Virus record (IMG/VR): IMGVR_UViG_3300045776_000167
Location: 1-21,142 of that record
Length of the DNA: 21,142 nucleotides
Source of the DNA: a virus
Reading direction: 5' to 3' (one strand)
The translations under genes and the position numbers were made by a program. Shown here in pieces: positions 1,122-11,302 of this stretch (positions within the stretch are counted from its first letter, which is position 1; each line of letters opens with the position of its first letter). The notes below the pieces were generated by a model, which ran no database searches, was not told where the DNA came from, and saw only the letters and a program-made list of their open reading frames with translations.

Positions 1122-2189
1122 CTATTTTCGCTGCCGGCTCGCGCGTTGTAAACGCCCCATGGCGCCTTTGGCAAACGTATCGTCAGGCCGGACGTACACC
1201 TGCAGAACTTCGCGGGTCCGGTGACCGGTAATCGACCTGATCTGGTCATCCGTGCAGCCGGCGGCGCCGAGGGCGGTCGCGAGCGTCCGGCGCAGATCGC
1301 GATACTGCAGGTCCTTCGGCAGCCCCGCCTGGTCCCTGATCTCCGCGAACGTGTGCTGGAAATCCGACTCTTTGTAAGGGCGCCCAGTGTTCTCCGAGAC
1401 CACCATCTGCGTCGACTTTCGATCAGTCGCCTCCAACAGCACCTTCAACTCGGGCAGCACCGGGATGCCCACGGCCTTGTCGGTCTTGGCCTGCCTGATC
1501 CGGACGGTGTGCCCATCATATGCCGTCCAGGCCATCGTGCGCAGGTCCGCCGGCCGCTGGCCGAGACACCAGCCCAACATCACTGCCAGCGCCATGGAGG
1601 GCCGGCCGGCTTCGATTGCCGCGAGGCAGAACGTGTCCCGCTCGGCGGGGGTCCAGATCCGGGACCGGCTTTGAGGAGCCCTGACGCGCAGTCCGGCCGC
1701 TGGATTCTCCGCGAGCCATCCTTCGACCTTCCCAAAAGCCAGCAGACGGCGCAACGCGGCGAAACGATTGCGCGAAGTCGCCGCGCCATTTGCGTCGCGC
1801 TGGGCACGATACCAGGTTCGCACGGCCTTGCTCGTGATCTGCCGGACGGGAACGTCTTCAGCCCATTCCAGAGCCGACTTGATGTTGTAGAGATAGTCGC
1901 GCTGGGTTCGAGGGCCCATGTCGAGGAACCAGTCGTCCCGCTGGAAAAGATCGTCGAGAGCGCGCAATCCATCCGGAATGGTGGACGGCCGGGCGGACAG
2001 GTCACCGCGATACCAGGCATCCAGTTCGGCGTTCAGCGTCTCGGCCTGCCGCACTGCCTCTGCCGGATCGTCGTCAAGCCTTCGCGGGAGGAATCCGGCC
2101 CGTCGGAGCTTCGGAGTCGGCCACCAATACCGGGCCAAGCCGTTTTTTCGGCGGCGTTCGATCAGGTAGCGGACCTTGACCTTGCCCAT
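1122..2189 (-). CDS. int: Tyrosine-type integrase (prophage integrase)
   Basis: Site-specific recombinase of 355 residues that would insert and excise the prophage. The N-terminal part has the basic, Trp-rich arm-binding start common in this group. A core-binding domain spans roughly residues 75-165. The catalytic domain shows R212 (GQRPADLR), K235 (QAKTDK), an RDLRR box (297-301, with Arg at the usual His position, as in several phage integrases), H323 (TGHRT) and nucleophile Y332. I start it at ATG 2189 because MGKVKVRYLI resembles family starts; ATG at 2219 has a better ribosome binding site (GGAG) and is the main alternative. It is the last gene of a leftward operon and overlaps the excisionase-like gene by 116 nt out of frame. 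A terminator follows. Confidence 0.92.
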   Translation of the reverse strand: MGKVKVRYLIERRRKNGLARYWWPTPKLRRAGFLPRRLDDDPAEAVRQAETLNAELDAWYRGDLSARPSTIPDGLRALDDLFQRDDWFLDMGPRTQRDYLYNIKSALEWAEDVPVRQITSKAVRTWYRAQRDANGAATSRNRFAALRRLLAFGKVEGWLAENPAAGLRVRAPQSRSRIWTPAERDTFCLAAIEAGRPSMALAVMLGWCLGQRPADLRTMAWTAYDGHTVRIRQAKTDKAVGIPVLPELKVLLEATDRKSTQMVVSENTGRPYKESDFQHTFAEIRDQAGLPKDLQYRDLRRTLATALGAAGCTDDQIRSITGHRTREVLQVYVRPDDTFAKGAMGRLQRASRQRK

Positions 2190-2439
2190 TGGCTCGCCGG
2201 ATGAGGATCTCTTCTGCATCGTGCGGATCTCCGCCCGGACTGACAAGCCCGTACCGGTGGCGCACCCATATCGCCACCGCTTGGGTTGAAAACAGGTCGT
2301 AAGTCGGATCAGGGCGTGGGAAATCGGCGGGAAAATTGTCGCGCAACCAGGTTTCCGGCCGACGAAACGCGACCTCGGCAACCTCCGCCCAGGTCATGGT
2401 CAGGGGTTGCCAGGGATAGGTGCGCCGCTTGCCGCGCAT
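2074..2439 (-). CDS. Excisionase-like small DNA-binding protein
   Basis: 121 residues from ATG 2439, which overlaps the upstream gene's TGA as TGATG, so translation is probably coupled. Residues 15-65 contain a short helix-turn-helix followed by FPRPDP and a hydrophobic helix (STQAVAIWVRHRYGL), the layout of AlpA/excisionase-type MerR-like winged helices that bend attachment-site DNA. The C-terminal half (about residue 70 onward) lies over the start of the integrase gene in another frame and is low-complexity, so only the first ~65 residues look constrained. Its place directly before the integrase fits an excisionase or directionality factor. Function is inferred from fold pattern and position. 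Confidence 0.6.
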   Translation of the reverse strand: MRGKRRTYPWQPLTMTWAEVAEVAFRRPETWLRDNFPADFPRPDPTYDLFSTQAVAIWVRHRYGLVSPGGDPHDAEEILIRRANGQGQGPLPDRTPPKKRLGPVLVADSEAPTGRIPPAKA

Positions 2440-3649: not shown

Positions 3650-4003
3650 ATGGCTGACAGAATGCCCTTAGATACGCTTGAGGTGGTGAAGGGGCTGAAG
3701 GCGGCCGGGTTCACCGATGAGCAGGCCGAGGCCTTGACCCGCGTGGTGCGCGACGCTCAAAGCGTCGATTTGTCCACCCTGGCCACGAAGCCGGATCTTC
3801 AGGATGTGCTGGCAGCCACGAAGGCGGACCTTCAGGCTTCCTCGGCTGCCATAAAAGCTGATCTTCAGCTCGGCCTGGCTGGCGCCAAGACTGACCTGGC
3901 AGAGACCAAGGCGGAAATCCTCAAATGGATGGTCAGCGCAATCGGCATACAGACGGTCGTGATCATCGGCGCCGTGGTTGCGCTCGTGCGGGTGGGACAT
4001 TGA
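3650..4003 (+). CDS. DUF1640 (CCDC90-like) coiled-coil protein with C-terminal membrane anchor
   Basis: 117 residues; ATG 3650 follows GGAGAG by five bases. The plan is that of DUF1640: an N-terminal helix (LEVVKGLKAAGFTDEQAEALTRVV), a run of coiled-coil units built on a repeated (T)K-x-DL motif (residues about 45-88), and one C-terminal membrane helix (about 92-114, ending ALVRVGH). Family members are membrane-anchored oligomers without an assigned bacterial function. It follows the related short gene at 3370 and has its own promoter-like element, so the pair may be expressed independently of the late genes, possibly in the lysogen. Confidence 0.75.
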   Translation: MADRMPLDTLEVVKGLKAAGFTDEQAEALTRVVRDAQSVDLSTLATKPDLQDVLAATKADLQASSAAIKADLQLGLAGAKTDLAETKAEILKWMVSAIGIQTVVIIGAVVALVRVGH

Positions 4004-4067
4004 AAACGTGATGCCCCACCCTCTCCCGCTGGATGGATCGATCAAGTCCTGACGACCCCCTGATCCG

Positions 4068-4085
4068 TGCTACCTTCGCGGCATG
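4068..4085 (+). promoter_or_regulatory. Extended -10 element giving a probable leaderless start
   Basis: TGC-TACCTT followed by CGCGGC and the ATG of the next gene at 4083. A start about seven bases after the -10 would put the 5' end of the RNA at or near the ATG. The surrounding block CCCTGATCCGTGCTACC recurs almost unchanged at 4526-4541. Confidence 0.4.
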
Positions 4086-4277
4086 AGCAAGAACTCCTTC
4101 CCCAAGCCGCGACCGATAACGTTCATGACCCATGGATTCAGTGCGGGTCAGGCGGTGGAGATCCTAGAGTGTTGGGACACCCTATCCGACGACGAAGTTA
4201 TGGCGCTCGGTCTTACGGGTTCTGTTTCTGGAGAACAGCCGCAATCGATGAAGCCGCGACCGCAATCTGTGCATTAA
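4083..4277 (+). CDS. Small unknown protein, probably leaderless (64 aa)
   Basis: Not recognised. The frame MSKNSFPKPRP continues through an acidic helix (EILECWDTLSDDEVMALGL). It has no Shine-Dalgarno sequence but sits exactly six bases after an extended -10 element shared with its neighbours, which favours leaderless translation. Its last 65 bases overlap, tail to tail, the oppositely oriented gene at 4213-4464, so its C-terminus may not be conserved. Coding status is plausible, not certain. Confidence 0.4.
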   Translation: MSKNSFPKPRPITFMTHGFSAGQAVEILECWDTLSDDEVMALGLTGSVSGEQPQSMKPRPQSVH

Positions 4278-4464
4278 GCTGCGTGCCACCAGCGGCCGAA
4301 CTTGCGATACGTTCCAAGTGTGATTCTATCCGATCTAGATAGAGCGCGATGTACTCCAGGGCATGAATCTGGCGTTCGTCGGCGCTCGCCGGAGCCGACG
4401 GCATTGACATAAGCGGCATCCACGTCTTGCGCGCTGCCGGTGGCTGTTGGGGTTGAGTTGCCAT
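4213..4464 (-). CDS. Unknown helical protein (83 aa)
   Basis: Not recognised. ATG 4464 has AAGGAG a few bases upstream; an upstream in-frame start at 4494 would ignore this site. The N-terminus is Gln/Pro-rich. Residues from about 30 form a helix (QIHALEYIALYLDRIESHLERIASSAAG) followed by an Ala-rich helix, as in small coiled-coil phage proteins. It is the last gene of the leftward cluster that begins with the repressor. Its upstream leader is a near copy of the leader of the gene at 4807. Confidence 0.55.
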   Translation of the reverse strand: MATQPQQPPAARKTWMPLMSMPSAPASADERQIHALEYIALYLDRIESHLERIASSAAGGTQLNAQIAVAASSIAAVLQKQNP

Positions 4465-4828: not shown

Positions 4829-5224
4829 TCACCGTCCTCGCACCCGGGCCATCGGCACGATGCAGCCGGCGGCGCGGCGCTTGGGGCGCGGGTTGGGGGG
4901 TGGTTCAGGTTTGACGTGAAGGTCTCGCGCCGCCTCGACGTCCTTTTGCAAGGCGGCCTGTTCCGACTTCCAAAGAATATCTGCCAGGGACGAATCGATA
5001 CCTACTACGGTACCTCGGTAGAGCCAGTCTGTTGTGATGCCGTATCTGTCGCAGAACTGCTTCACAAACCAAGCCGCAGGATAGTTATCGCCACGGAGCC
5101 AGTTTCCAAGCTTACTCGGCGCTGTGTTCAGCCTACTCGCAACTTCCGCTTGAGAGAGGCCTAGCGCTTCTATGGCGGCCCGCAGCCGTCGGCCAACCTG
5201 TGCTTTGTATAGCGTTTCTGACAC
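4829..5224 (-). CDS. Cro/C1-type repressor (HTH, 131 aa)
   Basis: Residues about 6-70 form a lambda-repressor-like domain with the helix-turn-helix SQAEVASRLNTAPSKLGNWL (24-43), then DWLYRGT, typical of the end of the fold. The C-terminal part is short, charged and Pro-rich with no S24/LexA peptidase domain, so RecA-stimulated self-cleavage is not expected. The start is GTG at 5224; no strong ribosome binding site is visible. It diverges from the YdaS/Cro-like gene at 5313 across a region with GCAG-N5-CTGC operators, as a prophage maintenance repressor would. It probably also controls the integrase promoter, which carries the same operator. Confidence 0.8.
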   Translation of the reverse strand: MSETLYKAQVGRRLRAAIEALGLSQAEVASRLNTAPSKLGNWLRGDNYPAAWFVKQFCDRYGITTDWLYRGTVVGIDSSLADILWKSEQAALQKDVEAARDLHVKPEPPPNPRPKRRAAGCIVPMARVRGR

Positions 5225-5242
5225 GACGTCATGATCGACTAC

Positions 5243-5300
5243 GTGCAGATTTTCTGCGATGCAGAAGATTGATCGTTGACTTTATGCAGAATTCCTGCAA
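5243..5300. promoter_or_regulatory. Immunity-region operators and rightward early promoter
   Basis: Two operators with core GCAG-N5-CTGC lie at 5245-5257 and 5286-5298, with a half site (GCAG) at 5261-5264. They match the palindromes at 3267-3314. A -35 TTGACT at 5276-5281 directs rightward; its 17-bp spacer would again be occupied by the second operator, though the -10 (about 5299-5304) is poor. A leftward repressor promoter must also lie here but I cannot define it. Confidence 0.6.
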
Positions 5301-5312
5301 GTCATTCAAGCT

Positions 5313-5618
5313 ATGCCAAATTACGATCCAGCACTCATACGTGTGTTAGAAAAATCGGGCGGCCCGGCCCGGCTCGCCATGTATCTCGGCGTCGTCGCTT
5401 CTGCGGTAACACAATGGTCGCGCGTGCCCGCTAGACACATACCTCGGATTGAAGCGCTAACCGGGATTCCTGGGACTGAGATTCGGCCCGATTTGTATTC
5501 GGCTCCTGAGCCAAAGATACGCAAACTGAATACAGCCAAGGCGTCGCAAAAGCCGAAGGCGAAGCGCTCCTCTGCGAAGTCCCGTATCTCCGAACCGCAG
5601 CAAGAAGAAGCCGCCTGA
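5313..5618 (+). CDS. YdaS/Cro-like DNA-binding protein (101 aa)
   Basis: Residues 5-62 match the YdaS/Cro pattern: ALIRVLEKSGGPARLAMYLG, then AVTQWSRVPARHIPRIEALTGI and the ending EIRPDLY. The residues after about 65 are a basic Lys/Ser-rich tail. As the first gene rightward from the immunity operators, opposite the repressor, it has the position of Cro and would promote the lytic choice by repressing the repressor. YdaS-type proteins are also described as antitoxin-like, but no toxin partner is adjacent. Its TGA overlaps the next ATG (TGATG at 5616-5620), giving coupled translation with the ProQ/FinO gene. Confidence 0.8.
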   Translation: MPNYDPALIRVLEKSGGPARLAMYLGVVASAVTQWSRVPARHIPRIEALTGIPGTEIRPDLYSAPEPKIRKLNTAKASQKPKAKRSSAKSRISEPQQEEAA

Positions 5619-6241
5619 TGTCCGCGGGCGACGCGAGCGCCGGCCCACGCCCGAGTCGCTTCGGCGGCACTCTGTTGCTGTCCAAGCCGGCGCCGCCGAA
5701 GGTCGCGGCCATGGTCGCGGCGATCAAGTCTCCCCAGGCCCCAAAGCCACCGCCAGCCGAACCGCAGTGCGCAAGCAATCCTTCCGCACTGCCCCCGGCG
5801 AAACCTCCGACCAAGCGCGACCGCGGCCCTGTCGTCCTGCTGCCGCCCGGCTCACCGACGCCTGGCGCGGTCGAGGCTGCCGCTGAACGCCAGCGCATCG
5901 CCTGGCGCGTCGCCGATCTGGCACTGTGCCGCGAGCGGTACCCGGCGCTGTTCGACCCCGACCATCCTGTGCCGCTTGCGATCCACATCCATAAGTCCGG
6001 CCGCCTCGGGCAGCTGCTGGGCACCAAGCGGGCCAAGCGCCTGCTGGACTGGTGGACCTCCCAGCCTGCCTATGTCGCCGCTGTCGCAGCGGGCGGTCAA
6101 CGTTTGAACCTTGACGGCTCTTCGGCCGGCGAGGTGTCCCCTCAGCACTGCGCCGTCGCCCAAGCTGCGCTGCTCTCTCGAGCACAACCTATAGATTTGC
6201 CTCCCTCGGTGGGGGTTCGACAAATGGAGGATGCAGCGTGA
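5618..6241 (+). CDS. ProQ/FinO-family RNA chaperone
   Basis: 207 residues. The first ~90 are Pro/Ala/Lys-rich and probably disordered. Residues about 95-187 show the ProQ/FinO pattern: ERYPALFD, then PLAIHIHKSGRL, a Lys/Arg-rich helix (LGTKRAKRLLDWW), the AYVAAVAAGGQRLNLDG signature and GEVSPQHCAVAQAAL. These proteins bind the 3' terminator hairpin and U tail of small RNAs and act in antisense regulation (FinO with FinP/traJ) or globally (ProQ). Here the gene is coupled to the Cro-like gene, so it is an early phage product under repressor control. A predicted small antisense RNA ends just downstream, a possible ligand. The identity of the domain is clear; its target is inferred. Confidence 0.85.
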   Translation: MSAGDASAGPRPSRFGGTLLLSKPAPPKVAAMVAAIKSPQAPKPPPAEPQCASNPSALPPAKPPTKRDRGPVVLLPPGSPTPGAVEAAAERQRIAWRVADLALCRERYPALFDPDHPVPLAIHIHKSGRLGQLLGTKRAKRLLDWWTSQPAYVAAVAAGGQRLNLDGSSAGEVSPQHCAVAQAALLSRAQPIDLPPSVGVRQMEDAA

Positions 6242-6310
6242 GCCCCCTTTCGGCGAAACATCGCGTCAGTGACTACGACTTTCGTGTCGTTGTCATTTCA
6301 CTGCTGGCAC

Positions 6311-6348
6311 ATAAATAAACAACCCCCAGTTGCTAGAACAACTGGGGG
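6311..6348 (-). terminator. Leftward intrinsic terminator
   Basis: A perfect 10-bp stem (CCCCCAGTTG / CAACTGGGGG at 6323-6332 and 6339-6348) with a 6-nt loop is followed on the minus strand by a T-rich tract (TTGTTTATTT, 6322-6313). On the plus strand the hairpin is followed by CAAAAAG, so it should not stop rightward transcription. Confidence 0.75.
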
Positions 6349-6371
6349 CAAAAAGAGTAAATCCAAATGCG
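6312..6371 (-). ncRNA. Predicted ~60-nt leftward small RNA (OOP-like position)
   Basis: A leftward promoter (-35 TAGACG at 6406-6401, 17-bp spacer, -10 TATAGA at 6383-6378) would start near 6371, and the terminator above would end the RNA near 6312. The transcript has no reading frame of note and consists of a short 5' part and the terminator hairpin. It lies between the ProQ/FinO gene and the replication initiator and runs against early transcription, the same arrangement as lambda OOP between cII and O. Its 3' hairpin plus U tail is the feature ProQ/FinO proteins recognise. Prediction from signals only. Confidence 0.45.
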
Positions 6372-6377
6372 TCACAA

Positions 6378-6406
6378 TCTATACACAACATTTCCTCTCC
6401 CGTCTA
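6378..6406 (-). promoter_or_regulatory. Leftward promoter of the predicted small RNA
   Basis: TAGACG and TATAGA with exactly 17 bp between them on the minus strand. No leftward protein gene lies between here and the terminator 55 bp downstream, so the unit would make only a small RNA. Confidence 0.4.
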
Positions 6407-6420
6407 TTGCTGGCGAATTA

Positions 6421-6468
6421 ATGTTTCCCGACGTTTCCGTGAACGCGGCCGGCTGGGCTGAGTTCTGA
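6421..6468 (+). CDS. Possible 15-residue leader peptide coupled to the initiator gene
   Basis: ATG 6421 opens MFPDVSVNAAGWAEF, whose TGA overlaps the initiator's ATG as TGATG (6466-6470). The initiator lacks a convincing ribosome binding site, so coupling to a short leader could set its translation. The bases just before (GGCGAATTAATG) resemble the iterons inside the initiator gene. Coding status is uncertain. Confidence 0.3.
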   Translation: MFPDVSVNAAGWAEF

Positions 6469-8006
6469 TGTCGGCGACGAACGCCGGTCCCGGTCGGCCG
6501 CCCGGAATATCCGAGGCGACGCTGGAGCGCCAGCGCAGGGTCCGCGCGATGCACGCAAAGGGCATCTCCATAGCGACGATCGCGGAGCTCGAGGACCGCG
6601 TGCCGGCGTACGTGCGTTCGCTGATCGGCGGCGCCGCGAAGGACAGCGAGCCTGAGCCGGGCGAGGACACTCTGCCGCAACCGCCGCGACCGCTGTCACG
6701 GCGAACGGTAGTGTCCCGGGCATGGGACTTCATCGAAGATCAGCCCACCATGACGCTGGGCGTAGCCGAGAACGATTTCTGGATCAGGGTTCTCGTCGCC
6801 ATCCATGAAACCGGGGACGGGTTCCGTCTCCAGATCGGCGAGGAGGGTTGCCGGTTCCGGACGCGCGCGGATCTGGCCCTGCTGGTCGGCGCCGGCCATT
6901 TTTGTGCCGGCGACAAGATCGATGTCGAGGGGTGGCTGACGAAGCTGATCGCCCGGGGGCGCCTGATCGACATCGGCGGCGTCGATATCGGGATACCACA
7001 GGGTCATCCCCGTTTGCGCCTGACGCCGACGAACAGCAAACCGCGCAAACCGACGCCCAAGCCACAAGCCAGCGACGATGACCGGCGCCAGGGCGCGATG
7101 CTCCATTCGTTTCCAGGGGGGCGCCTGTCCGCCTCTGACGACGGCGAATTAAATCTGCGTTTCGCAGATAAAAACCCCTCCGGCGGGGAATTAAATATGC
7201 GTCGCACCGCAGATTTAATTCCCTCCGGCGCAGATAAAATCGCAGATTCAATTCCCGGGGTCGCGTGCGTGGGCACGGCTGCTGCTGCTGCTAATGCTAA
7301 GGAAGATCAATCTATTAGCATCAGCAGCAGCACTGTTAGCCGCGCGGGCGACGGGGAATTAAATATGCGTTTTGGCGAATTAAATATGCGTTCGGAAAAC
7401 CCCTCCGGCGCAGATGAAATTAAACCGAAACGACCCGACGACGACCTCGTCAACCTGGTCGCCGAGCTGGTGGAGCTGGCCAGGCTAGGGCGCCACCCGA
7501 ACCCCAAGGACCTGCGGGCCGTCCAGGGATGGCTCGAGAAGGGGGAGCCAGCGGCCACGATGCGGGCGGTGATCGAAACCGTCGTTTCCAGGCCGAATGG
7601 CACACGGCCGACGTCGCTGGCTTACTTCGACCGAGCGATGGGCGAGGCTATGAGGGCAGCTGTCCGGCCGTCGGGGGCCGCTCCCCCTGCGGGATCGCCA
7701 GCACGGCCGACGATGTCCGATGCCGACCAGGCGATTCAGGCCATGCTGAAACCCTCCTGCGAGCGATGGCGGAAGGACATGCACAAATACCCATTTCCCG
7801 GGAACCTCGCGGCCTTCAAGGCGGCGATCAGCTCGGGCGTGCAGCCTCTGGCCGACCGATGGATCGAGTATGACGACGCCTGGAACAAGGCGGGCTGCCC
7901 GGCTCCCCTAAAGCCTCCGGACTTCACGCTTCTGGCTTCTAACCCGTCCGCTTTCGAGGCGCGCCTGTTTGAGTGTGAGGAAGGAATAACCGACCCCGGC
8001 GCCTGA
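6468..8006 (+). CDS. Phage replication initiator with internal iterons (lambda O-like organisation)
   Basis: 512 residues. Residues about 8-55 form a helix-turn-helix-like start (GRPPGISEATLERQRRVRAM, then AKGISIATIAEL). Residues about 80-185 look like a winged helix (AWDFIEDQPTMTLGVAENDFWIRVLVAI and later DVEGWLTKLIARGRLIDIGG). A low-complexity linker (226-308) with repeated Glu-Leu-Asn-(Met/Leu)-Arg is encoded by DNA iterons. A C-terminal helical domain follows (320-512), the part that in lambda-type initiators loads the helicase. Order and setting (early operon, downstream of Cro, internal repeats) point to an origin-binding initiator. No helicase gene is adjacent, so the host DnaB is probably recruited. 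The family assignment is by organisation, not by a diagnostic motif. Confidence 0.7.
   Translation: MSATNAGPGRPPGISEATLERQRRVRAMHAKGISIATIAELEDRVPAYVRSLIGGAAKDSEPEPGEDTLPQPPRPLSRRTVVSRAWDFIEDQPTMTLGVAENDFWIRVLVAIHETGDGFRLQIGEEGCRFRTRADLALLVGAGHFCAGDKIDVEGWLTKLIARGRLIDIGGVDIGIPQGHPRLRLTPTNSKPRKPTPKPQASDDDRRQGAMLHSFPGGRLSASDDGELNLRFADKNPSGGELNMRRTADLIPSGADKIADSIPGVACVGTAAAAANAKEDQSISISSSTVSRAGDGELNMRFGELNMRSENPSGADEIKPKRPDDDLVNLVAELVELARLGRHPNPKDLRAVQGWLEKGEPAATMRAVIETVVSRPNGTRPTSLAYFDRAMGEAMRAAVRPSGAAPPAGSPARPTMSDADQAIQAMLKPSCERWRKDMHKYPFPGNLAAFKAAISSGVQPLADRWIEYDDAWNKAGCPAPLKPPDFTLLASNPSAFEARLFECEEGITDPGA
7143..7422. other. Putative phage replication origin: iterons within the initiator gene
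   Basis: Six copies of the 14-mer GAATTAAAT(A/C)TGCG or its complement occur at 7146-7159, 7188-7201, 7208-7221 (inverted), 7241-7254 (inverted, one mismatch), 7356-7369 and 7377-7390. Three degenerate inverted copies begin with CGCAGAT at 7163, 7229 and 7409. A second motif, CCCTCCGGCG, recurs at 7176, 7221 and 7401. The AT-rich iterons stand out from the GC-rich surroundings. Clustered iterons inside the initiator's own gene are the hallmark of lambdoid origins. Confidence 0.65.
7278..7331. repeat. Long inverted repeat between the iteron groups
   Basis: The arm GCTGCTGCTG plus ATGCTAA (7281-7290 and 7294-7300) pairs with TTAGCATCAGCAGCAGC (7315-7331), leaving a 3-nt bulge and a 14-nt loop: 17 paired bases. 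It separates the four left iterons from the two right ones and could extrude as a hairpin in single-stranded origin DNA. Confidence 0.5.
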
Positions 8007-8007
8007 C

Positions 8008-8361
8008 GTGATCGCCCTCCGCGCCGCGGCCGCGGGGCTGGCCGAAAAAGACGTCACGGCTCTGCCCGGCCGCCGGCCGCTGTCCCTGGAGGAGTTCCTG
8101 AAGGCCAATACGCCTCCCGTCGGGATCGACCTCGGCACCTCGGTTCTGACGTCGCCTTCCGGCGGCAGGTCCAGGAAGGACATGACCGAGGAGGGCGTGG
8201 TGATCGAGGTGGTGCCGCCTGGCGGCCAGGTGCGGTCGGCGCGGGTGGTTTATCCGCGCACCGCCTGCGCCGCGCGCTCGGCGGTGGTTCGCTACGTGGT
8301 GCAGTGCTGGACGCGCCGGGTGTTGCGCTGGGCGGCCGAGTTGCAGGTCATTAGCCGATAG
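8008..8361 (+). CDS. Unknown protein downstream of the initiator (117 aa)
   Basis: Not recognised. GTG 8008 begins one base after the initiator's TGA, so it is translated as part of the same operon. The N-terminus has LSLEEFLKANTPPVG, the middle is beta-like (EGVVIEVVPPGGQVRSARVVYP) and the C-terminus is basic and helical with two Cys and several Trp (YVVQCWTRRVLRWAAELQ). Possibly a small replication or early regulatory accessory protein; the sequence does not decide. It ends with TAG, directly followed by the ribosome binding site of the next small gene. Confidence 0.6.
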   Translation: MIALRAAAAGLAEKDVTALPGRRPLSLEEFLKANTPPVGIDLGTSVLTSPSGGRSRKDMTEEGVVIEVVPPGGQVRSARVVYPRTACAARSAVVRYVVQCWTRRVLRWAAELQVISR

Positions 8362-8372
8362 AGGGAGGGGTT

Positions 8373-8546
8373 GTGGAGACGCTGGAATACTGGAAGGCCA
8401 AGGCGGAGGCGCTGGAAGCCGCGCTGCGTCGGGTGGAGGCCTGGTCGTTCGACGAAGCGGTGGATCTGACGCCGGCCGGCTATGAGGACTGGTGCCCGCT
8501 GCTGCATGGCCAGCGCATTCGGCCGGAGCGCTACCGTGGCCACTGA
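8373..8546 (+). CDS. Small unknown protein (57 aa)
   Basis: GTG 8373 follows a strong purine-rich site (GAGGGAGGGG, 8361-8370). The product starts METLEYWKAKAEALEAALRR, a helix, and ends in an acidic then basic segment (DEAVDLTPAGYEDWCPLL and an Arg-rich tail). It fits tightly between the neighbouring genes and overlaps the next start by 11 bp. Not recognised. Confidence 0.55.
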   Translation: METLEYWKAKAEALEAALRRVEAWSFDEAVDLTPAGYEDWCPLLHGQRIRPERYRGH

Positions 8547-9733: not shown

Positions 9734-9790
9734 CCCACGATCTAAAAATAAACGTTGCAGCTTGGGATACACGCGAGCCAAATAGAGTCC

Positions 9791-10348
9791 ATGCAGGCAG
9801 CGGGCGCGTCAGTTTGTGCCTTCGTGCCTAGCGGCAGCCGTGCAGGCGCCCGCTGGTTCTGCGCCTGGACTCATCCGCGGGACGAACGGCGCGCACATCT
9901 GGCGCTGAGCCAGCAGGGCTTCGACGCCTATCTCCCGTTGCGCATGGATCCTCGGACGAAAAGCATTGGCAGCCTGTTCCCGGGGTATCTGTTCATCCGC
10001 TTCGATGCCGATCGGGACGCCTGGGGTGCGATCCGGTCCACCAGCGGCGTTGGCGGCCTTGTTTGCTCCGTCGCCGGACGCCCATCGCCACTGCCGGACG
10101 CCGTCGTCGGGGACTTCATCAGCCGGACGTCAGCGCGCGGCGTGGTCGATGATCCAGGGCCGGACCCGGCGCCTGACCGCGTCACACCTATCCCGAGCGG
10201 CACATCGGTGCTGCTCGCCTCCGGCGCGATGGTCGGCCTGACCGGGATCTGCCAGTGGTCGGACGCCAAGCGGGTCAGACTGTTGCTCGAAATCCTCGGC
10301 CGGACGGTGCCGATGACGGTGCCGAGGGCTGCGGTCGATGCGGTTTGA
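9791..10348 (+). CDS. NusG/RfaH-type transcription elongation factor (phage-encoded)
   Basis: 185 residues from ATG 9791; TTG 9755 is an alternative and neither has a strong ribosome binding site. Residues about 20-112 form a NusG N-terminal domain: RWFCAWTHPRDERRAHLALS, GFDAYLPL, FPGYLFIRFD and TSGVGGLV, the diagnostic order. Residues about 133-185 fit a KOW-type barrel (IPSGTSVLLASGAMVGLTGI, then RVRLLLEILGRTVPMTVP). NusG paralogs such as RfaH bind RNA polymerase at special sites and let it read through terminators. This gene sits between the early genes and the late structural operon, so a role as late antiterminator is plausible. The loop usually rich in Lys/Arg is degenerate, as in specialised paralogs. 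Confidence 0.8.
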   Translation: MQAAGASVCAFVPSGSRAGARWFCAWTHPRDERRAHLALSQQGFDAYLPLRMDPRTKSIGSLFPGYLFIRFDADRDAWGAIRSTSGVGGLVCSVAGRPSPLPDAVVGDFISRTSARGVVDDPGPDPAPDRVTPIPSGTSVLLASGAMVGLTGICQWSDAKRVRLLLEILGRTVPMTVPRAAVDAV

Positions 10349-10372
10349 AAATAGAGTGAATCCGCCGTTTTG

Positions 10373-10402
10373 AATGTTATACAAGTCTCATTTAATAACA
10401 TT
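10373..10402. repeat. Inverted repeat resembling a tyrosine-recombinase core site
   Basis: AATGTTAT (10373-10380) and ATAACATT (10395-10402) form a perfect 8-bp inverted repeat. Read as two 11-bp arms the match is 9 of 11, with an 8-bp centre (AGTCTCAT). This 11-8-11 layout is close to Xer and lox-type sites. It lies 12 bp before the start of the second recombinase gene and is AT-rich in a GC-rich setting. It could equally be a promoter operator. Confidence 0.4.
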
Positions 10403-10414
10403 AAGACCGGACCC

Positions 10415-11302
10415 ATGGACATCATCATCAGCGGCGCCGTCGAGACCATCGCCGCCGTTCCCGTCGTCCAGCAGGCATCCAGCGACGAGGACATGATCGC
10501 CCGCTGGATCGGGCGCTATCGGTCCGCCGCGACCCGAACGGGCTACAGGATCGACATTCGGGCGTTTCGCGGGTTCACCGACAAGTCGCTGCGCGCGATC
10601 ACTGTCGGCGACGTGCAGGACTTCGCTGCCACGCTGGCGCACCTGGCGCCGTCGACCATTGCCCGCCGCCTCTCCGCCGTGAAGTCGCTGCTCGGCTTCT
10701 CCCACCGGCTCGGCTACATCCCGTTTGACGTCGGCGGCGTTGTCGAGACGCCGCACATCAAGGACGCGCTGGCCGAGCGGATCATGACCGAATCGGACGT
10801 GCAGCACATGCTTAGGCTGGAGCGTCATCCCCGCAACGCAGCATTGCTCCGGCTGATCTATGGCGCCGGGCTTCGGGTGAGCGAGGTCTGCGGCCTGCGC
10901 TGGCGCGACACGGTGACGCGGGACGATGCCGGCCAGATCACGGTGTTCGGCAAAGGCGGCAAGACGCGAGTGATCCTGCTGCCGGCTGCGCTCTGGACTC
11001 ATGTCGTCGCAATCCGCAACGGCGCCGGTCCTGACGACCCGCTTTTCCGGTCGCGGAAGAAGGGGGGTGCGTTGGTGCCGATGCAGGTCCATCGGATCGT
11101 TAAGAACGCCGCACAGCGCGCGAAACTGCCGGTTTCGATATCCACGCATTGGCTGCGCCATGCCCACGCATCGCACGCGCTCGACCGCGGCGCTCCTGTG
11201 CACGTGGTGCAAACGACGCTCGGCCACGCATCGCTGACTACCACCACGCGCTATTCGCATGCGCGGCCCGGCGATAGCAGCGCCAAGTATCTGACAGCAT
11301 AG
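10415..11302 (+). CDS. Second tyrosine recombinase, XerC/XerD-like
   Basis: 295 residues, the length of Xer proteins. A SAM-like core-binding domain covers residues about 23-105. The catalytic domain keeps every key residue: R154 (AGLRVSEVCGL), K180 (FGKGGK), H245 and R248 (THWLRHAHASH), H271 (LGHAS) and Y280 (TTRYSH). I start it at ATG 10415; TTG 10370 would extend it over the inverted repeat. It differs clearly from the integrase at 1122-2189, being shorter and without the arm-binding domain. Xer-like enzymes resolve dimers or exchange cassettes without arm sites. Here it lies between the NusG-like and ParB-like genes, so it may resolve concatemers or a circular replicating form. Confidence 0.9.
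   Translation: MDIIISGAVETIAAVPVVQQASSDEDMIARWIGRYRSAATRTGYRIDIRAFRGFTDKSLRAITVGDVQDFAATLAHLAPSTIARRLSAVKSLLGFSHRLGYIPFDVGGVVETPHIKDALAERIMTESDVQHMLRLERHPRNAALLRLIYGAGLRVSEVCGLRWRDTVTRDDAGQITVFGKGGKTRVILLPAALWTHVVAIRNGAGPDDPLFRSRKKGGALVPMQVHRIVKNAAQRAKLPVSISTHWLRHAHASHALDRGAPVHVVQTTLGHASLTTTTRYSHARPGDSSAKYLTA

Follow-up and report, generated by a model that had tools for sequence, protein, structure and literature searches.

A gene for a FinO/ProQ-domain protein lies in the early region of a viral genome, between a Cro-like regulator gene and a candidate replication initiator gene, which raises the question of the RNA on which such a protein might act. The original prediction held that the protein and a small terminator-like RNA encoded directly downstream constitute a self-contained post-transcriptional switch for initiator expression or lysogeny, analogous to the FinO/FinP pair of plasmids.

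Phage and early regulatory region

The window, meaning the whole stretch of DNA analysed (an IMG/VR virus record of 21,142 bases), is, judged by its gene content, a P22-like temperate phage, since it encodes a tyrosine integrase beside a tRNA-Thr gene, a P22-like portal and coat protein, and a divergent CI-like/Cro-like regulator pair. Portal matches include Acetobacter phage phiAX1 and the tRNA-Thr displays a 92% match to an Ancylobacter genome, so an alphaproteobacterial host is likely, the tRNA match pointing no further than that level. Features of the integration and early regulatory regions are listed below.

1122-2381, minus strand: tyrosine integrase gene, beside the tRNA-Thr gene
4829-5224, minus strand: CI-like repressor gene (cI), divergent from cro (HTH_31/HTH_19; PHROG transcriptional regulators/repressors)
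5313-5618, plus strand: Cro/YdaS-like regulator gene, cro (Pfam YdaS_toxin, E 1.7e-9; P22_Cro, E 1.3e-5)
5618-6241, plus strand: FinO/ProQ-domain gene, proQ, 207 aa (Pfam PF04352, PDB profile, predicted fold)

The TGA of cro overlaps the ATG of proQ at 5618-5620 (TGATG), confirming the predicted coupling of the FinO-domain gene to the Cro-like gene. The cI-cro interval (5225-5312) contains palindromic TGCAGA-type repeats, GCAGATTTTCTGC and TGCAGAATTCCTGCA, which were spotted by eye only and are likely operators. In addition to the classical integrase, the window encodes a second, XerD-like tyrosine recombinase at 10370-11302, with a match in only one of the related loci (L140). An RfaH/NusG paralogue at 9755-10348, with matches also in 17 related phage loci, is a candidate late-gene antiterminator.

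The FinO-domain protein

The product of 5618-6241 matches PF04352 with an E value of 2.3e-12 (47.3 bits, against a curated cut-off of 27), and a PDB profile search with the window protein and 19 relatives recovered E. coli ProQ, NMB1681, RocC and FinO, all at E 1.2e-11 or better. The FinO domain, spanning approximately residues 82-190, is predicted by AlphaFold mostly at pLDDT above 90, while the N-terminal extension of about 80 residues is Pro/Ala-rich and is predicted at low confidence. A Foldseek search with the predicted domain retrieved NMB1681, terminator-bound RocC and FinO, each with a probability of 1.00. From these profile and fold matches, membership of the FinO-domain family can be regarded as practically certain, and the identification of the protein in the original prediction is upheld. 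Comparison with E. coli ProQ reveals that Y70 and R80 are retained (Y152 and R162 in the window protein) and that R58 is replaced by Lys (K140), while K35, K54 and R62 are not conserved, K35 being replaced by Ala and K54 by Thr (T136). The importance of these contact residues in E. coli ProQ is known from mutants, and loss of K54 weakened RNA binding (PMC7192607). Judged from its domain, the window protein is likely to bind RNA.

Proteins of this type are uncommon in the presumed host group. Matches to the window protein at E ≤0.001 were found in 10 of 385 alphaproteobacterial genomes, several of them weak, which agrees with the published account of the family as a recent arrival in Alphaproteobacteria, often via mobile elements (PMC9977716). 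In at least 71 genome loci with FinO-domain genes the other genes of the window are absent, save for one distant XerD-like match. FinO-domain genes are also annotated in Erwinia and Aeromonas phages; in Erwinia phage Rouille the gene precedes rIIA/rIIB, and in Aeromonas phage LAh_9 it sits among unannotated genes. The Shewanella phage protein KASIA_p031 is the product of a FinO-domain early gene, for which the authors found no FinP-like neighbour (PMC8541194). These genes also reside in phages, and neither an initiator nor an antisense hairpin has been reported beside them.

A strong hairpin with probable leftward polarity

The interval between proQ and the next long gene, together with that gene, contains the following elements.

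6238-6318, plus strand: possible 26-aa ORF (GTG start), identified by translation; it has a 4-nt overlap with the proQ stop and ends just 5' of SL1
6323-6348, minus strand: SL1, strong hairpin with leftward terminator polarity (fold, tail, strand comparison)
6312-6371, minus strand: predicted antisense RNA of ~60 nt ending at SL1, with an inferred start near 6371
6367-6468, plus strand: candidate 33-aa leader ORF (sequence, translation)
6412-6421, plus strand: lone match to the iteron core, GGCGAATTAA, within the leader (pattern search)
6441-6465, plus strand: SL2, imperfect hairpin that stops 2 nt short of the initiator ATG, weaker than the hairpins that mask the Shine-Dalgarno (SD) sequence in relatives
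6468-8006, plus strand: candidate replication initiator gene, 512 aa; its position and the iteron array inside it are O-like
7139-7420, plus strand: iteron array of GGSGAATTAAATMTGCG repeats inside the initiator gene (repeat finding, pattern search)

SL1 is the first element downstream of proQ, 119 nt upstream of the initiator start, and displays a perfect 10-bp stem closed by the loop CTAGAA. When the 230-nt stretch 6241-6470 was dinucleotide-shuffled 3000 times, a perfect stem of this length arose in 13 of the shuffles; with the whole window shuffled 100 times, 23 sequences held such a stem somewhere. The hairpin is flanked by CAAAAAGAGTAA on the plus strand, where there is no U tail, and by TTGTTTATTTAT on the minus strand; a simple terminator scan scored it as terminator-like on the minus strand only, and 12 pairs form on the minus strand compared with 10 on the plus strand. 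The minus-strand tail is broken by a G and an A, and the 5' flank is rich in U, not in A. On this evidence, the polarity of SL1 is probably leftward. An Rfam search of the window returned no RNA family at SL1, its sole match being the tRNA, and covariation between the window and its sister phage (see below) was nil at SL1, the hairpin being identical in both.

The predicted terminator hairpin downstream of proQ thus exists as a strong structure, but it lacks the plus-strand U tail that a rightward small RNA ending there would need; minimal ProQ barely binds terminators devoid of a 3' tail (PMC11912907), and the rightward version of the small RNA is not sustained. With the U tail confined to the minus strand, a FinO-type ligand at SL1 would have to be a leftward antisense RNA to be plausible. 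A minus-strand promoter-like match, TAGACG-17-TATAGA (8/12, plus-strand coordinates 6406 to 6378), would place the 5' end near 6371 and the 3' end near 6312, in line with both the length of about 60 nt and the end coordinate given in the original prediction, although such matches occur at a background of 1.66 per kb and this one is not significant. For comparison, RNAI of IncK (I-complex) plasmids measures 60-61 nt (PMC10724649). That a real leftward RNA is made at SL1 is considered slightly more probable than its absence.

Leader and candidate initiator

The TGA of the 33-aa leader ORF overlaps the initiator ATG (TGATG), and the start codon of this ORF is covered, on the other strand, by the predicted antisense RNA. 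The pattern GGNGAATTAA has five matches in the window, against 0.06 expected, four of which fall within the initiator gene and one in the leader; the array in the initiator gene, in which the GGSGAATTAAATMTGCG repeat family was located at 7139-7393, is a candidate origin. No replication-initiation domain was recognised in the product of 6468-8006, for which HTH_7 and DnaB_2 scored below threshold and PHROGs gave just a weak match to a regulator, and the gene is a candidate replication initiator assigned by position and iterons rather than by family match. Control of the initiator, one of the two outputs originally proposed, is plausible from the position of the hairpin just before this gene.

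Linkage of proQ to replication

A sister phage (IMGVR_UViG_3300022863_000006) is identical to the window over 6025-8400 and differs at 14 positions over 5607-6024, 12 of which fall no further downstream than 5690, in the region where proQ begins. Its cI and cro are different genes, while proQ, hairpin and initiator are nearly identical. The clustering of 12 of the 14 differences at or before 5690 suggests that the exchange took place inside proQ. Since the sister phage swaps cI/cro and keeps the proQ-hairpin-initiator block, proQ appears to travel with the replication block. On this comparison proQ, leader and initiator form one replication module, linked to replication and not to the cI/cro immunity region, and SL1 in turn belongs to the replication module rather than to proQ or the immunity region. 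The suggested coupling to the lysogeny switch is thereby not supported. When 3680-4422 of the contig L002 is set against 4829-5690 of the window, the whole of cI/cro is swapped between otherwise near-identical phages, the exchange point apparently lying within the first codons of proQ.

Leftward hairpins in related phages

Relatives were gathered by coat protein and terminase, giving 48 longer contigs, many of which are fragments in which an absence is no proof. Either proQ or the initiator of the window was found in only one of the 48, namely the sister phage. Exact hairpin arms were detected in no further viral contig, and a close-relative search for the initiator likewise returned none.

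In three relatives in which proQ was not found (L143, L147 and L151), a strong, sequence-diverged hairpin lies 96-100 nt before the start codon of the initiator and is T-richer on its leftward side. The initiators of these phages are PHROG-recognised, O-like and contain internal repeats. Across 517 kb of the related contigs there are 35 such leftward hairpins, a background of 0.018 per 260 nt. Ten initiators were detected in the relatives (two in one stretch), of which three are preceded by a strong leftward hairpin and one, in L185, by a weaker one; the feature is recurrent, not universal. Similar leaders in L123/L149, L124, L130 and L144 precede genes of which not every one is shown to be an initiator. 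Since relatives that lack proQ possess the same kind of hairpin before their initiators, the hairpin is apparently independent of proQ, which speaks against a self-contained protein-RNA pair.

Hairpins of the window and its relatives were compared one by one because MAFFT misaligns stems of unequal length. Eight of the nine hairpins compared fold better as the minus strand, the exception being L143, and several of the phages are related, so these are not nine independent events. In most cases the bias arises where a G.U pair of the minus strand corresponds to a C.A mismatch on the plus strand. The lambda terminator tO behaves similarly (-14.7 kcal/mol on the minus strand versus -9.5 kcal/mol on the plus strand), and, as a control, the same scan applied to lambda recovered tO together with a minus-strand promoter at O.

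The leaders of the relatives contain a second hairpin, which masks the SD of the initiator, and the leader of L147 folds far better than its shuffles (z -5.0). An exact-pattern search for this SD-masking hairpin identified no contigs beyond the related set. A common leader layout can be recognised, comprising a leftward-type hairpin, a CTGTAAC-like motif and an SD-masking hairpin directly 5' of the start codon (L143:4806-4954, L147:5020-5167, L151:7565-7710, L123:1587-1739, L124:7137-7288, L130:2552-2696 and L144:4346-4500); from its sequence it appears to be a type of structured leader, so far undescribed, for phage replication genes.

Comparison with known antisense systems

The proposed analogy with FinO/FinP holds to the extent that a FinO-domain protein is encoded next to a leftward hairpin with a U-rich tail. 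The FinO/FinP/traJ system of F-like plasmids likewise combines a FinO-domain protein with a short terminator-ended RNA that is antisense to a leader (PMC9977716). In contrast, FinP controls the transfer activator traJ rather than replication, and the predicted RNA of the window has no established second stem-loop. The closest parallel is rather the FopA/Inc/RepZ system of plasmid pCol1B9 (ColIb-P9), in which FopA helps Inc to pair with repZ mRNA and reduces the amount of initiator made (PMC9977716). Translation of the plasmid initiator depends on a pseudoknot, which the antisense RNA disrupts. Both there and in the window the FinO-domain gene resides on the same mobile element as the initiator, and in the window it is accompanied by a leftward terminator-like hairpin before the initiator gene. 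The window differs in that the setting is a phage early operon rather than a plasmid and in that the antisense RNA is only predicted. A BLAST search with the window FinO-domain protein revealed no match to an enterobacterial IncI plasmid.

In lambda, OOP is a leftward RNA that ends at tO and acts on cII (PMC5869508). Similar to SL1, tO is a leftward terminator hairpin, better folded on the minus strand, located just before an O-type initiator gene that contains the origin, and lambda O, like the candidate initiator, has iterons inside the gene. Lambda differs from the window in having no FinO-domain protein in the interval before O, where the window has proQ, and OOP targets cII, whereas the predicted RNA of the window would overlap the initiator leader.

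Proposed mechanism and alternative explanations

In the proposed model, the early rightward operon would be read in the order cro, proQ, leader and initiator, with the origin within the initiator gene. SL1 would constitute the 3' end of a short leftward OOP/RNAI-like antisense RNA spanning the start codon of the 33-aa leader ORF, the stop of which overlaps the initiator start; translation of this ORF, and its coupling to the initiator, would be part of the scheme. The FinO-domain protein, produced from the same mRNA, would bind the hairpin and U-rich tail of the antisense RNA, stabilise it and promote its pairing with the leader, such that initiator synthesis would be kept low after the operon has been expressed. 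The computation supports the FinO domain and its fold, the overlapping frames, the polarity of the hairpin, the hairpins of the relatives and the linkage of proQ to replication; antisense transcription, protein binding, translation and coupling of the leader ORF, and the lowered initiator output are inferred. The model as a whole, in which a FinO-domain chaperone assists an OOP/RNAI-like antisense RNA that covers the initiator leader, is put forward tentatively, as somewhat less than an even prospect.

Nearly as likely, and closest to this model, is an explanation in which SL1 only ends leftward transcription, as a plain terminator or as the end of a ProQ-independent OOP-like RNA (perhaps served by host Hfq), while the FinO-domain protein is separate cargo that acts in trans, its targets being RNAs of the host or other RNAs of the phage. 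The proQ-less relatives, with the same hairpin type at the same position, fit this explanation well, as do the unrelated neighbourhoods of the FinO-domain genes of Rouille and LAh_9 and the frequent occurrence of many RNA ligands for a single FinO-domain protein (PMC9977716). It accounts less readily for the fact that proQ adjoins hairpin and initiator in both phages that have it, although these represent one lineage in which chance adjacency is possible, or for the union of the same parts in the plasmid FopA/Inc/RepZ system.

SL1 might instead act within the rightward mRNA, as an intercistronic stem-loop with a part in protecting or processing the proQ-initiator transcript or in shaping the leader, and possibly bound by ProQ in autoregulation. 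Such a role would suit its position, flanked by candidate short ORFs between two genes that are read rightward, and the SD-masking hairpins of the relatives and the strongly folded L147 leader show the kind of structure it invokes. Nevertheless, the missing plus-strand U tail, the greater stability of the minus strand in most hairpins and the scarce binding of tail-less terminators by minimal ProQ (PMC11912907) render this role unlikely. Reading the palindrome as a DNA site, for instance the core site of a XerD-like tyrosine recombinase, is prompted by its 10-bp inverted arms around a 6-bp centre, which resemble a tyrosine-recombinase core, and by the XerD-like protein that the phage itself encodes. 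Against it, the equivalent hairpins of the relatives differ greatly in arm sequence, no XerD-like gene was found in the stretches of these relatives that were searched (L140 giving the one match among the related loci), and the one-sided T-rich flank and strand signature suit an RNA; we consider a DNA site highly improbable. Returning to the antisense model, the simplest account is that the antisense element predates proQ in this phage group and that the chaperone was added by the lineage of the window.

Significance

Phage FinO-domain genes are already known, in Erwinia, Aeromonas and Shewanella phages, without an assigned function, and the claim of a lack of phage precedent applies to the arrangement at the initiator leader, which is apparently new: in the open-licence literature no report was found of a FinO-domain gene adjoining an initiator leader that has a hairpin of antisense type. 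The locus offers one phage FinO-domain protein a concrete candidate ligand and target. It may represent a phage counterpart of plasmid FopA/Inc/RepZ, in which OOP-like initiator control, exerted through a leader already used by proQ-less relatives, has acquired a FinO-domain chaperone; this interpretation is held with a little more reserve than the mechanism itself. The recurrent leftward hairpin before the initiators of related phages would remain a finding even if ProQ is uninvolved. If true, the model would link the antisense copy-control systems of plasmids to the OOP RNA of lambda, the regulation of which is still termed unsolved (PMC5869508), and would show that the antisense element came first and that a dedicated chaperone was added later.
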